In this document: piece after piece, positions 10,835 to 14,299 of the stretch
Position numbering within the stretch: the first letter of the stretch is position 1
Layout: each line of letters begins with the position of its first letter
Program-made: the position numbers and the translations under genes
The notes under the pieces: generated by a model
Told to the model about the DNA's origin: nothing
Database searches by the model: none
Seen by the model: the letters and a program-made list of their open reading frames with translations, nothing else
Source of the DNA: Actinomycetota bacterium
GTDB taxonomy: Bacteria; Actinomycetota; Thermoleophilia; Solirubrobacterales; 70-9
Direction of reading: 5' to 3'
Assembly: GCA_018268415.1 (NCBI GenBank)
Contig: JAFDWO010000160.1
Location: forward strand, 62,001-126,000
DNA: 64,000 bases

Positions 10835-13800
10835 TCATCTCCGCCGCCCGAAGCTGTGCCCGCCGGGGGCGACCGCCCGCAGCTCGGCGATCGCGAGCTT
10901 GCGCAGCTCCTGGCTGCGGCGCCAGGGTGAGGGGTCGCGGCCGGAGCCGATCGGCGGTTCGCGCCGCGACGGGCGCGCGGGGGAGGGGAGCGTCTCGTCG
11001 CCGTCCGCCCTCTCGGTCTGCTCCAGCTCCTCGATCGTGGCGATGAGGACGTTGGTCGTCCCTTCGCGCCGCTCGAGCTTGCCGCGGGCACGGATCAGGG
11101 GGGCGGCGCGGACCACGGCGCGGCTCTGGTCGTAGACCCGCGCGGGCACGATCAGGTTGACGACGCCGAGCTCGTCCTCGATCAGCATGAAGACGATCCC
11201 CTTCGCGGTCTCCGGCCGCTGGCGGGCGACGACCATCCCCGCCACCTCGACCGTCGCCCCGTCGGCGACCCGCTCGAGGTCGGCACTGCTCGAAAGCCCC
11301 GCGCCGAGCCGGGGGCGCATCAGCGCCATCGGGTGGCGACCGAGGACCATCCCGGTCGAGCGGTAATCGGCGATCACCTCGCCCCACTCACCGAGCCGCT
11401 CCAGGCGGGGCGGCTCGGGCGGCTCGATCGGCAGGGAGAGCTGCGTCGTGCCCTGGCCCGCCCGCCGCCCGTTGCCGGTGACGCCGACCCGCCACAGTGC
11501 CCGCCGCCGTTCCTCCTCGGCGCCGAGAGGCACTTCGTCGAGCGCTCCCGCCCAGGCCAGCTTTTCGAGGCTCGGCAGCCCGACCCCGGAGCGTGATGCC
11601 AGCTCGGCGATGCCGCGATATGGGCCGCCCCGCTTGCGCTCGGCGACCAGCGCCGCCATCTCCTCCTCGCGCACCCCCTTCACGTAGCCGAGGCCGATCC
11701 GCACCACGAGCCCGCCCGGCGCCCCCTCCGGTTCCCCTCGCCGAAACGGCGATTCGACGTGGCAGAGGACGCAACTGAGGTTGGCGTCGACGCTCGCGAT
11801 GCGGACCTTGCGACGGGCCGCCTCGTGGACCAGGGCGTCGGGCGGGTAGAAGCCCATCGGCTGCTCGTTCAGCAGACCACAGAGGAAGGCCGCACCGTGG
11901 TGGACGCGCAGCCAGGCCGACTGGTAGGCGAGCAGGCCGAACGCCGCCGAGTGGGCCTTCGGGAAGCCGAAGCCGGCGAAGCCCTGGATCTTCTGCCAGA
12001 TTTCCTCCGCCGGCGCCGGCGGGACGCCCCACCTCTTCCCGGCCCCGGCGATGAAGTCCTGACGGTGGTCCTCGATCGCCTGTTGGGAGCGCTTGCGGCT
12101 CATCGCCCGTCGCAGGCTCTCCGCCCGGGCGGGGGTGAAGCCCGCGAACTCCATCGCCACCTCCAGCACCTGCTCCTGGTAGACGATCGTCCCCAGGGTG
12201 TCGCCCAGCGGCTTCTTCAGGGAGGGGTGCTCGTAGGGTGGCTCGAAGCTCGGGTCTTCGCGCTGGCGTTTGCGGCGTTCGATGTAGGGGTGGACGGCGC
12301 CGCCCTGGATCGGACCGGGGCGGACCAGCGCCACCTGGACGGTGAGGTCGTCGAGGGTTTCGGGATGGGTGCGGGGCAGCATCTGCATCTGGGCGCGGCT
12401 CTCGATCTGGAAGACCCCGGTCGTCTCGGCCGCCTGGATCGACCTGAAGGTCTCGGCGTCGTCGAGCGGGATCCGCGAGAGGTCGATCCGCTTCCCCACC
12501 GCCGCTTCGACCTCGTCGACACAACGTTCGACCGCGGAGAGCATCCCCAGGCCGAGCAGGTCGATCTTCAGCAACCCGGCGTCGGCGCAGGAGTCCTTGT
12601 CCCACTGGACGATCTGGCGGCGCTCCATCGCGGTCGGTACCACCGGGCAGAAGTCGGTCAACGGCGCGGTGGCGATCACCATCCCGCCGGAGTGCTGGGA
12701 GGCGTGCCGCGGTAGGCCGAGCGCCTCCTTGCCGATCTCCATCAGCGCCTGCCAGCGTCGCGAGCCCGCCCTCCTCGTGCCGATCGCGGCGGCGATGTCG
12801 CGTTCCATCTCCTCGACCGACTCGTGGAAGCCGACCACCCCCGCGACCTTCTCGATCTCCTCCGGCGGCAGCCCGAGCACCTTGCCGAAATCACGGACGA
12901 CACCGCGCGGACGGTAGGTCGGGAAGGCGGCGACGAGGGCGGAGCGGTCGGCGCCGTAGACCTCGTGGACGCGGGGGATGAGGGCCTCGCGGACGTCACG
13001 GGGGAAGTCGAGGTCGATGTCGGGCATCGAGCGAGCGTCGTCGGAGACGATTTCGTCGTTGAGGAAACGGCCCGTGAAGAGGTCCGCCTTCACCGGGTCG
13101 ATGTGGGAGAGACCGGTCAGGTAACAGACGATCGAGCTGACGCTCGAGCCCCGGCCGCGGCCTGGCGGTAGGAGGGATCGGGCCGCCTCCCGTCCCCGCA
13201 CCTCGAGCGCGACCTCGCGGGCGAGCTCGAGCAGGCGGTGGTGGAGGAGGAAGAAGGCGGAGAGGTCGATCTTGCGGATCGTCCTCAGCTCCGACTCGAG
13301 CCGCCCTTCGGCCTTGCGTCGATCCACCCCCGGGGGATAGGCGGCGACCAGCCGTTCGCGGCAGAGCCGGGCGAGCTCGGCGTCGGCGTTCTCCTCCTGC
13401 GGGTAGCTGTAGCCGAGGTCCGTGTTGAGGTTGAAGGCGAGCCGCTCGGCGAGGCGCAGGGTCTCGGCGACGGCGCCCGGGTGCTCGGCGAAGCGCTCGG
13501 CCATCGCGGCGGGCGAGTCGAGCGCCGAGCTGGAGTTGCCGCGCCGGCGGGGCTCGCTCGACTCGAGCGTCTCACCCAGCCCGATCGCGACCAGCGCGTC
13601 CTGGAGGTGGGAGCGGGAGCGGGCGTGGGCGTGGACGTTGCCGGTGGCGACGGTGGGGACCCCGAGCCGCTCGGCGAGCAGCGCCAGCCAGCGGTTGCGC
13701 GCCCGGTCCCGGCGCCAGTAGGGACGCTGGAGCTCGACCCGGAAGCGATCGCGGCCGAAGGCGGCCAGCAGCCGGCGCCCGAGCCTCTCGCCCGCCGCCG

Positions 13801-14299
13801 TGTCGCCGCGCTCGAAGGCCCCCGCGAGCGCCCCGTCCCGCGCGCACCCCGAGAGGCAGACGAGCCCGTCGGCGTGTCGCTCGACCTCCTCCAGCGTCGT
13901 CCACGCCGGTTCCGCGACCCGCGCCGTGTTGTCCCGCGTATGAGCGTGAGCGGCGGTAAGGAGCCGGCAAAGGTTCCGATACCCCACCTCGTCCTCCACC
14001 AGCAAGGTCAGATGTTGACGGGCCGAAAACTCAAGCCCGTCTGGAGTTTTCGGCCCGTCAACAGCGGGGTGCGACGAAAGGCACACGGTCAGCTCGGCGC
14101 CGGTGATCGGGCGCAGGGCGAGCTCCTGGGTGCAGTGGGCGAACTCCATCGACCCCCAGAGGCCGTCGTGGTCGGTCAGCGCCAGCGCCGGGTAGCCGAG
14201 CTTCTCGGCGGCTTTCGCCAGCTCCTGCGGGGTCGAGGCACCGTCGAGGAAGGAGAACGCCGAGTGGGCGTGCAGCTCGATGTAGGGGGCAGTCGACAT
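10835..14299 (-). CDS. dnaE2: Error-prone DNA polymerase III alpha subunit DnaE2 (ImuC)
   Basis: This 1154-residue C-family polymerase opens with the PHP domain (ELHAHSAFSFLDGAS). It carries the catalytic acidic motif MPDIDLDFPRDVRE at about residue 425, the thumb/finger blocks DLTVQVALVRPGPIQGG and RRAMSRKRSQQ, and a C-terminal OB fold (about 1010-1100). It lacks the long C-terminal tau-binding tail of replicative DnaE, as DnaE2 does. It performs error-prone translesion synthesis together with ImuB. Start ATG 14299 gives MSTAPYIELHAHS directly. Residues about 79-95 are encoded by a 51-bp palindromic repeat inserted in frame. It is the last gene of the imuB operon, with a 7-nt gap from the DUF6504 gene. 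Confidence 0.95.
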   Translation of the reverse strand: MSTAPYIELHAHSAFSFLDGASTPQELAKAAEKLGYPALALTDHDGLWGSMEFAHCTQELALRPITGAELTVCLSSHPAVDGPKTPDGLEFSARQHLTLLVEDEVGYRNLCRLLTAAHAHTRDNTARVAEPAWTTLEEVERHADGLVCLSGCARDGALAGAFERGDTAAGERLGRRLLAAFGRDRFRVELQRPYWRRDRARNRWLALLAERLGVPTVATGNVHAHARSRSHLQDALVAIGLGETLESSEPRRRGNSSSALDSPAAMAERFAEHPGAVAETLRLAERLAFNLNTDLGYSYPQEENADAELARLCRERLVAAYPPGVDRRKAEGRLESELRTIRKIDLSAFFLLHHRLLELAREVALEVRGREAARSLLPPGRGRGSSVSSIVCYLTGLSHIDPVKADLFTGRFLNDEIVSDDARSMPDIDLDFPRDVREALIPRVHEVYGADRSALVAAFPTYRPRGVVRDFGKVLGLPPEEIEKVAGVVGFHESVEEMERDIAAAIGTRRAGSRRWQALMEIGKEALGLPRHASQHSGGMVIATAPLTDFCPVVPTAMERRQIVQWDKDSCADAGLLKIDLLGLGMLSAVERCVDEVEAAVGKRIDLSRIPLDDAETFRSIQAAETTGVFQIESRAQMQMLPRTHPETLDDLTVQVALVRPGPIQGGAVHPYIERRKRQREDPSFEPPYEHPSLKKPLGDTLGTIVYQEQVLEVAMEFAGFTPARAESLRRAMSRKRSQQAIEDHRQDFIAGAGKRWGVPPAPAEEIWQKIQGFAGFGFPKAHSAAFGLLAYQSAWLRVHHGAAFLCGLLNEQPMGFYPPDALVHEAARRKVRIASVDANLSCVLCHVESPFRRGEPEGAPGGLVVRIGLGYVKGVREEEMAALVAERKRGGPYRGIAELASRSGVGLPSLEKLAWAGALDEVPLGAEEERRRALWRVGVTGNGRRAGQGTTQLSLPIEPPEPPRLERLGEWGEVIADYRSTGMVLGRHPMALMRPRLGAGLSSSADLERVADGATVEVAGMVVARQRPETAKGIVFMLIEDELGVVNLIVPARVYDQSRAVVRAAPLIRARGKLERREGTTNVLIATIEELEQTERADGDETLPSPARPSRREPPIGSGRDPSPWRRSQELRKLAIAELRAVAPGGHSFGRRR
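14013..14063. repeat. 51-bp palindromic repeat, copy B, in frame inside dnaE2
   Basis: The arms are 23 nt, with the outer 20 bp perfectly paired (GGGCCGAAAACTC core), one mismatch in the inner three, and a 5-nt loop. It matches copy A at 1276-1326 in length, loop size and core. Its 51 nt equal 17 codons, so dnaE2 stays in frame; the encoded stretch (VDGPKTPDGLEFSARQ) lies between the PHP strands ending CLSSHPA and beginning HLTLLVED. Confidence 0.88.

Follow-up and report, generated by a model that had tools for sequence, protein, structure and literature searches.

Introduction

Short palindromes that lie scattered through genomes, and at times inside genes, have been described in bacteria and in organelles. 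Rickettsia palindromic elements (RPEs) are dispersed palindromes of 105-146 bp, described in Rickettsia, that are found between genes and in frame within genes for conserved proteins, and their mobiliser is unknown (PMC2229807). Repetitive extragenic palindromes (REPs) also occur inside open reading frames (ORFs), those of DnaE2 included, and in one reported case two Xanthomonas carry different REPs at approximately the same place in recB (PMC3733652). Bacterial miniature inverted-repeat transposable elements (MITEs; Correia/NEMIS, RUP, ERIC) are non-autonomous, carry inverted repeats and can form in-frame fusions with ORFs (PMC2229807). The hairpins of mitochondria (yeast GC clusters, sponge RHE and double-hairpin elements) are proposed to be mobile and lack an enzyme of their own; their units change fast, merge and shuffle, and in-frame copies in genes are occasional (PMC4478555, PMC2800124). 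Here we analyse a 51-bp palindrome, a copy of what we call family A, that lies in frame in dnaE2 in a 64,000-nucleotide stretch of DNA (hereafter the window) from an Actinomycetota bacterium of the order Solirubrobacterales. An earlier note on the window, made from its letters alone, had proposed a mobile palindrome with precedent mainly in Rickettsia, which understates the precedent set by the ORF-internal REPs.

Results

The exact core of family A, GGGCCGAAAACTC N11 GAGTTTTCGGCCC, was found 85 times in the 4.74-Mb genome that holds the window (G000; G and L numbers are the genome and locus labels of the analysis), compared with no occurrence of the reversed control pattern; the palindrome is therefore not a product of chance. 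Allowing up to three mismatches in the core gave 102 copies, and a wider, more general pattern with up to two mismatches gave 106, as the earlier note had predicted in expecting many copies of fixed length rather than two. Copies measure 49-51 bp, and their outer arms, GTYGAYGGGCCGAAAA, are near-invariant. An alignment of 73 copies revealed sharp edges, with conservation extending from GTTGAY to RTCAAC and an outer T preferred on the left; in G011, copies at unrelated sites have only the 49-bp palindrome in common. A weaker, degenerate tail, GGGGGTGTGACGGAAGTGTGAC, is present on one side of the copies and on both sides in several, its one-sidedness being partly by construction because copies were oriented by the tail. 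Inner stem pairs covary strongly (68 two-sided changes compared with 28.7 after shuffling), and structures slid out of register fail in the same comparison. The T-run that marks an intrinsic terminator was not found after the stem in the flanks of 87 copies, and no Rfam covariance model reached its gathering score in the window or in 10 loci.

The copy in dnaE2 occupies positions 14013-14063 (no strand assigned), its edges being set by the 73-copy alignment. Its host gene, at 10835-14299 on the minus strand, encodes an error-prone Pol III alpha subunit with an N-terminal PHP domain, and the palindrome corresponds to DnaE2 residues 79-95 (AVDGPKTPDGLEFSARQ); an example of the peptide predicted across the insert is VDGPKTPDGLEFSAR. 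The left arm (14013-14035, plus strand) and the right arm (14041-14063, plus strand) are 23 nt each, with 5 nt in between, and are 96% complementary, differing by a single mismatch. The outer part of the left arm, TGTTGACGGGCCGAAAA, is near-invariant across copies and species, while its inner part is genome-specific. A second copy in the window, at 1276-1326 (no strand assigned; arms 1276-1298 and 1304-1326), matches the first in arm length, arm identity and loop, and GGGCCGAAAACTC...GAGTTTTCGGCCC is present in both; it is intergenic, and its neighbouring genes are read divergently, which is unusual for family A. Both hairpins described in the earlier note were thus reproduced in position and design. 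Its claim of a net gain of exactly 17 codons was not: beside the palindrome lie another 18 nt, GCGGGGTGCGACGAAAGG (14064-14081, plus strand), which belong to the degenerate tail seen beside many copies and which G006 and G007 lack at this position.

When DnaE2 is aligned with Pol III alpha subunits of solved structure, the insert falls between PI.GAE..V and HLTLL, in a segment whose length varies, in agreement with the loop position suggested at the outset. The GAEL..HLTLL segment comprises 34 codons in the dnaE2 of the window, 28 in G006 and G007, 20 in G004 and 15 in G002. Judged from these alignments, the insert, which is in frame, probably lies in a tolerant loop.

Carriers make up six of the 12 genomes of one Solirubrobacterales genus (G000, G003, G006, G007, G008 and G011), the 12 genomes being 78-100% complete. 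No match was found in 220 other genomes of the order, nor in 98 others sampled from the class. Among the matches listed in a scan of GTDB, carriers were Solirubrobacterales or Actinomycetota metagenome-assembled genomes (70-9, RYN_247 and SZAS-10/14/15), and those matches inspected outside the genus had no GTTGAY arms and seem to have arisen by chance. The carriers with accession titles are drafts assembled from metagenomes, and copies analysed from other genomes are a sample. Carrier genomes are also larger, at about 3.8-4.7 Mb, than the six non-carriers of the same genus (2.4-3.4 Mb). No earlier description of family A was found in the open-access papers searched, which leave out most subscription papers.

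Relatives differ in which sites are filled. The insert is absent from DnaE2 of G002, G004, G005 and G009 and of the other genera aligned, so that residues 79-95 are missing there, as the earlier note had predicted for other genera. The PurQ site is filled in G000, G006 and G011 and empty in G003, G004, G005, G007, G008 and G009, and the PabB site is filled in G000, G006, G008 and G011 and empty in G005 and G009; empty orthologous sites, found here and elsewhere, had also been foreseen. At some vacated sites (PurQ and DnaE2 of G008, and the G006 ortholog of L013) the motif GTYGAYGGG is kept, which suggests either former copies since lost or a target preference. Separately, in the FAD-oxidase gene of G004 (locus L277), a genome without family A, the site that family A occupies in relatives holds a degenerate stretch resembling a palindrome, GACGGGCCTGAAACGTCC..GGACGTCTGCGGCCCGAC.

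What the earlier note had missed is that sister species fill the same sites with hairpins of different middles. At dnaE2, pabB, purQ and other sites, several species have nearly the same outer arms and differ in the inner 19 nt; at the dnaE2 site the middles are ACTCAAGCCCGTCTGGAGT (G000), ACCGCTCTATATCAGCGGT (G006), ACTCCATCCCTGCTTGAGT (G003), ACCCGTCAGATAGTCCGGT (G007) and AGCGCTGATATAGAGCGCT (G011), within nearly identical arms. Across 62 reciprocal-best orthologous pairs, with orthology called by flank similarity and in-gene sites as the secure cases, the inner 19 nt differed at a mean of 10.0 positions, compared with 9.55 for random partners from the same genomes and 3.7 for copies within one genome, while the 32 nt of outer arm differed at a mean of only 1.7. 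Because middles are alike within a genome and orthologous ones are no closer than random, they appear to have undergone concerted turnover or overwriting. The tail outside the arms is lineage-specific at some sites: dnaE2, pabB and purQ have gained it in G000 and are longer there than their counterparts in G006 or G011. At two places in L076 (1443-1560 and 2385-2500), a copy and its tail run into the surviving half of an older palindrome whose middle is different; both joins may be duplicates of a single event.

To place copies relative to genes, ORFs around 206 copies from six genomes were called by a simple hexamer-based gene finder whose training set was the window. Forty-five copies lie within ORFs and in frame, including four close to the C terminus, and the ORFs remain open through the copies. 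Besides dnaE2, genes hit in G000 include a PabA/PabB fusion (twice), PurQ, TsaD (at the C terminus), an FAD-linked oxidase, glycosyltransferases and a GntR-type regulator. Three reading frames are in use, giving unrelated peptides (VDGPKT..FSAHQ, GRKLK..FRP and RRAENS..FGPS), and the peptide is therefore not what is conserved. The frame that would read the TGA of GTTGAY occurs in six copies, and in all six the arm has lost the TGA (three of these copies are orthologues); overall, TGA is present in 76% of arms and missing in 24%. Intergenic copies lie downstream of genes and avoid promoters, with 67 between convergent, 75 between co-directional and 2 between divergent genes, compared with 150 convergent, 483 co-directional and 111 divergent adjacent gene pairs at the same loci. 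Many begin a few bases from a stop codon.

Several candidate mobilisers were sought. Reverse transcriptase genes are present in two of the 12 genomes, one carrier and one non-carrier, and so are uncorrelated with family A. An autonomous element with split arms was not seen among the loci examined. No half-sites flanking a transposase, as expected of a cognate insertion sequence (IS) with the same ends, were found in those loci, a subset of the genome, and no transposase was found among genes between close copy pairs or beside the repeat islands examined. The single match in IMG/VR, L292 42-76, is a true member: it has the GTTGAT arms and sits at one end of a contig of 49.6 kb, with a tyrosine integrase among nearby ORFs. 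Since that end is on the far side of the integrase gene, the match is probably the host flank of a provirus, and carriage by phage was rejected.

Other palindromes accompany family A. Family A palindromes stand at the start of noncoding repeat islands, about 0.4-1.2 kb long (L081 1494-2560, L026, L029, L062, L070, L094 and L100), which also hold several other palindrome families of fixed length, such as TCCGCTGTTCCTTATGGTCCC.. and GGACGCGTTCCGGACTTTGACCC..; some islands are 75-90% alike. A separate family, located at L006 238-297 and L081 1743-1802 with relatives in G003, G006, G007, G008 and G011, has a conserved 12-nt loop (CTGGCAGGCTGT or its complement) between complementary, species-varying stems of ~24 bp, the reverse of family A, in which the outer arms are conserved.

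Discussion

We consider family A to be a clade-specific, non-autonomous family of mobile hairpins that works in the manner of RPEs and whose resident copies are replaced, a reading to which we assign a probability of roughly 0.8. The mobility proposed in the earlier note is supported by copy number, empty sites and turnover, and it is from these that we infer it. The hairpin would be copied from one genomic site to another by way of the hairpin itself or of the outer arms. Conserved outer arms might be the recognition structure for a putative enzyme acting in trans, or they might supply homology, such that a fork stalled at the hairpin switches template to another copy. Copies would reach new sites and overwrite older residents, and each genome would therefore drift towards a dialect of its own. 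Those inside genes could persist where a loop tolerates them and the frame is kept, dnaE2 being an example, and no benefit to the host need be supposed.

Some of these observations could be accounted for without movement. Were the hairpins a resident regulatory signal (a transcription terminator, an mRNA 3'-end or an RNase target), selected at fixed places with middles changing by compensatory mutation, then the strong covariation, the many copies starting close to stop codons and the scarcity of divergent sites would find a ready explanation. A strong terminator would, however, truncate the mRNA at the 45 ORF-internal copies (purQ, pabB and dnaE2 among them), the T-run is missing after the stem, and promoter avoidance is also predicted by selection against harmful insertions. 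Ordinary mutation, moreover, leaves likeness within genomes and unlikeness between orthologous copies unexplained, and we regard a regulatory signal as improbable. Ectopic gene conversion alone would start from an old set of palindromes that dispersed long ago, no longer move and are kept alike within each genome by template switches between their shared arms. That several species fill the same sites with identical arms and different middles, that half-sites are almost completely lost and that arm ends vary in pairs are all consistent with such conversion. By itself, however, it explains neither the lineage-specific tails outside the arms nor the nesting in L076, nor the many sites that hold a copy in one genome and, in an incomplete sample, have no orthologous counterpart; as the sole process we think it unlikely.

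A strict REP or RPE family moved by a tyrosine transposase of the RAYT type would match the short palindromes, their position at 3' ends and between convergent genes, and the in-frame presence of some in ORFs, DnaE2 included. Against this, the Y1/RAYT transposase (PF01797) was found in none of the 12 genomes by a search that was positive in five known control genomes, and neither REP end tag is enriched at the ends of family A (GTAG 2.4% compared with 5.3% in the background; CGTC 14% compared with 18.6%), making such a family very improbable. An artefact of assembly or binning might be suspected from the metagenomic origin of the carriers with accession titles and from contigs that end near copies, but is scarcely credible given 85 exact copies compared with none for the control, the same gene sites in six genomes from different projects, and ORFs that stay open through the copies.

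Several points nonetheless weigh against a mobile family with replaced residents. No mobilising enzyme emerged from the searches for Y1/RAYT and reverse transcriptase genes in the 12 genomes or for transposases beside the copies and islands examined, and ectopic conversion, with no mobile step, could account for part of the concerted change. Some sites are filled in most carriers, and the pattern therefore partly reflects old inheritance rather than recent insertion. No target duplication can be defined, because the nearest relatives are at best about 80-90% identical and insertion edges do not resolve at that distance. The assemblies, finally, are drafts. As for how residents of a mobile family would be replaced, re-insertion into resident copies and ectopic template switching are both conceivable routes, and the tail and L076 favour re-insertion. 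More tentatively, and with some doubt, we suggest self-overwriting hairpins, in which a new lineage homes into resident copies at the same coordinates, genes included, through a mobilising system unlike RAYT; middle and tail would be replaced and the outer arms reused, leaving a dialect peculiar to the species at inherited sites.

In-frame palindromes have so far been known mainly from Rickettsia and from bacteria with REPs; here they are found in many genes of a Solirubrobacterales clade without RAYT, together with a record of replacement at fixed sites. This makes testable how short hairpins without an enzyme of their own spread and why copies within a genome remain alike. New peptide loops put into core enzymes also constitute a natural experiment in protein tolerance.

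Family A resembles REPs in being a short palindrome, mostly 3' of genes, between convergent or co-directional ones and sometimes in ORFs, and differs from them in its longer, fixed stem and in the lack of a Y1/RAYT gene. With RPEs it shares in-frame copies in genes for conserved proteins (45 in six genomes, with orthologues that are without the insert). It is set apart from them by described size and host, being 49-51 bp long, probably of other sequence and confined to one Solirubrobacterales genus, and by middles that are replaced in concert at orthologous sites. By the tested features it belongs neither to RPEs nor to the REP/RAYT system, because size and host differ from the one and the tags and transposase of the other are absent. 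Like MITEs it has inverted repeats, is non-autonomous and can fuse in frame to ORFs, whereas MITEs are about 100-200 bp long and often come with TA ends, a target duplication and a cognate IS. In family A no such features were seen, the last two being judged from diverged relatives and from the loci examined. It is also similar to the mitochondrial hairpins, which are short, lack their own enzyme and have occasional in-frame copies in genes; those, however, belong to organelle genomes, are unrelated in sequence and are without the combination that characterises family A, fixed outer arms around genome-specific middles.
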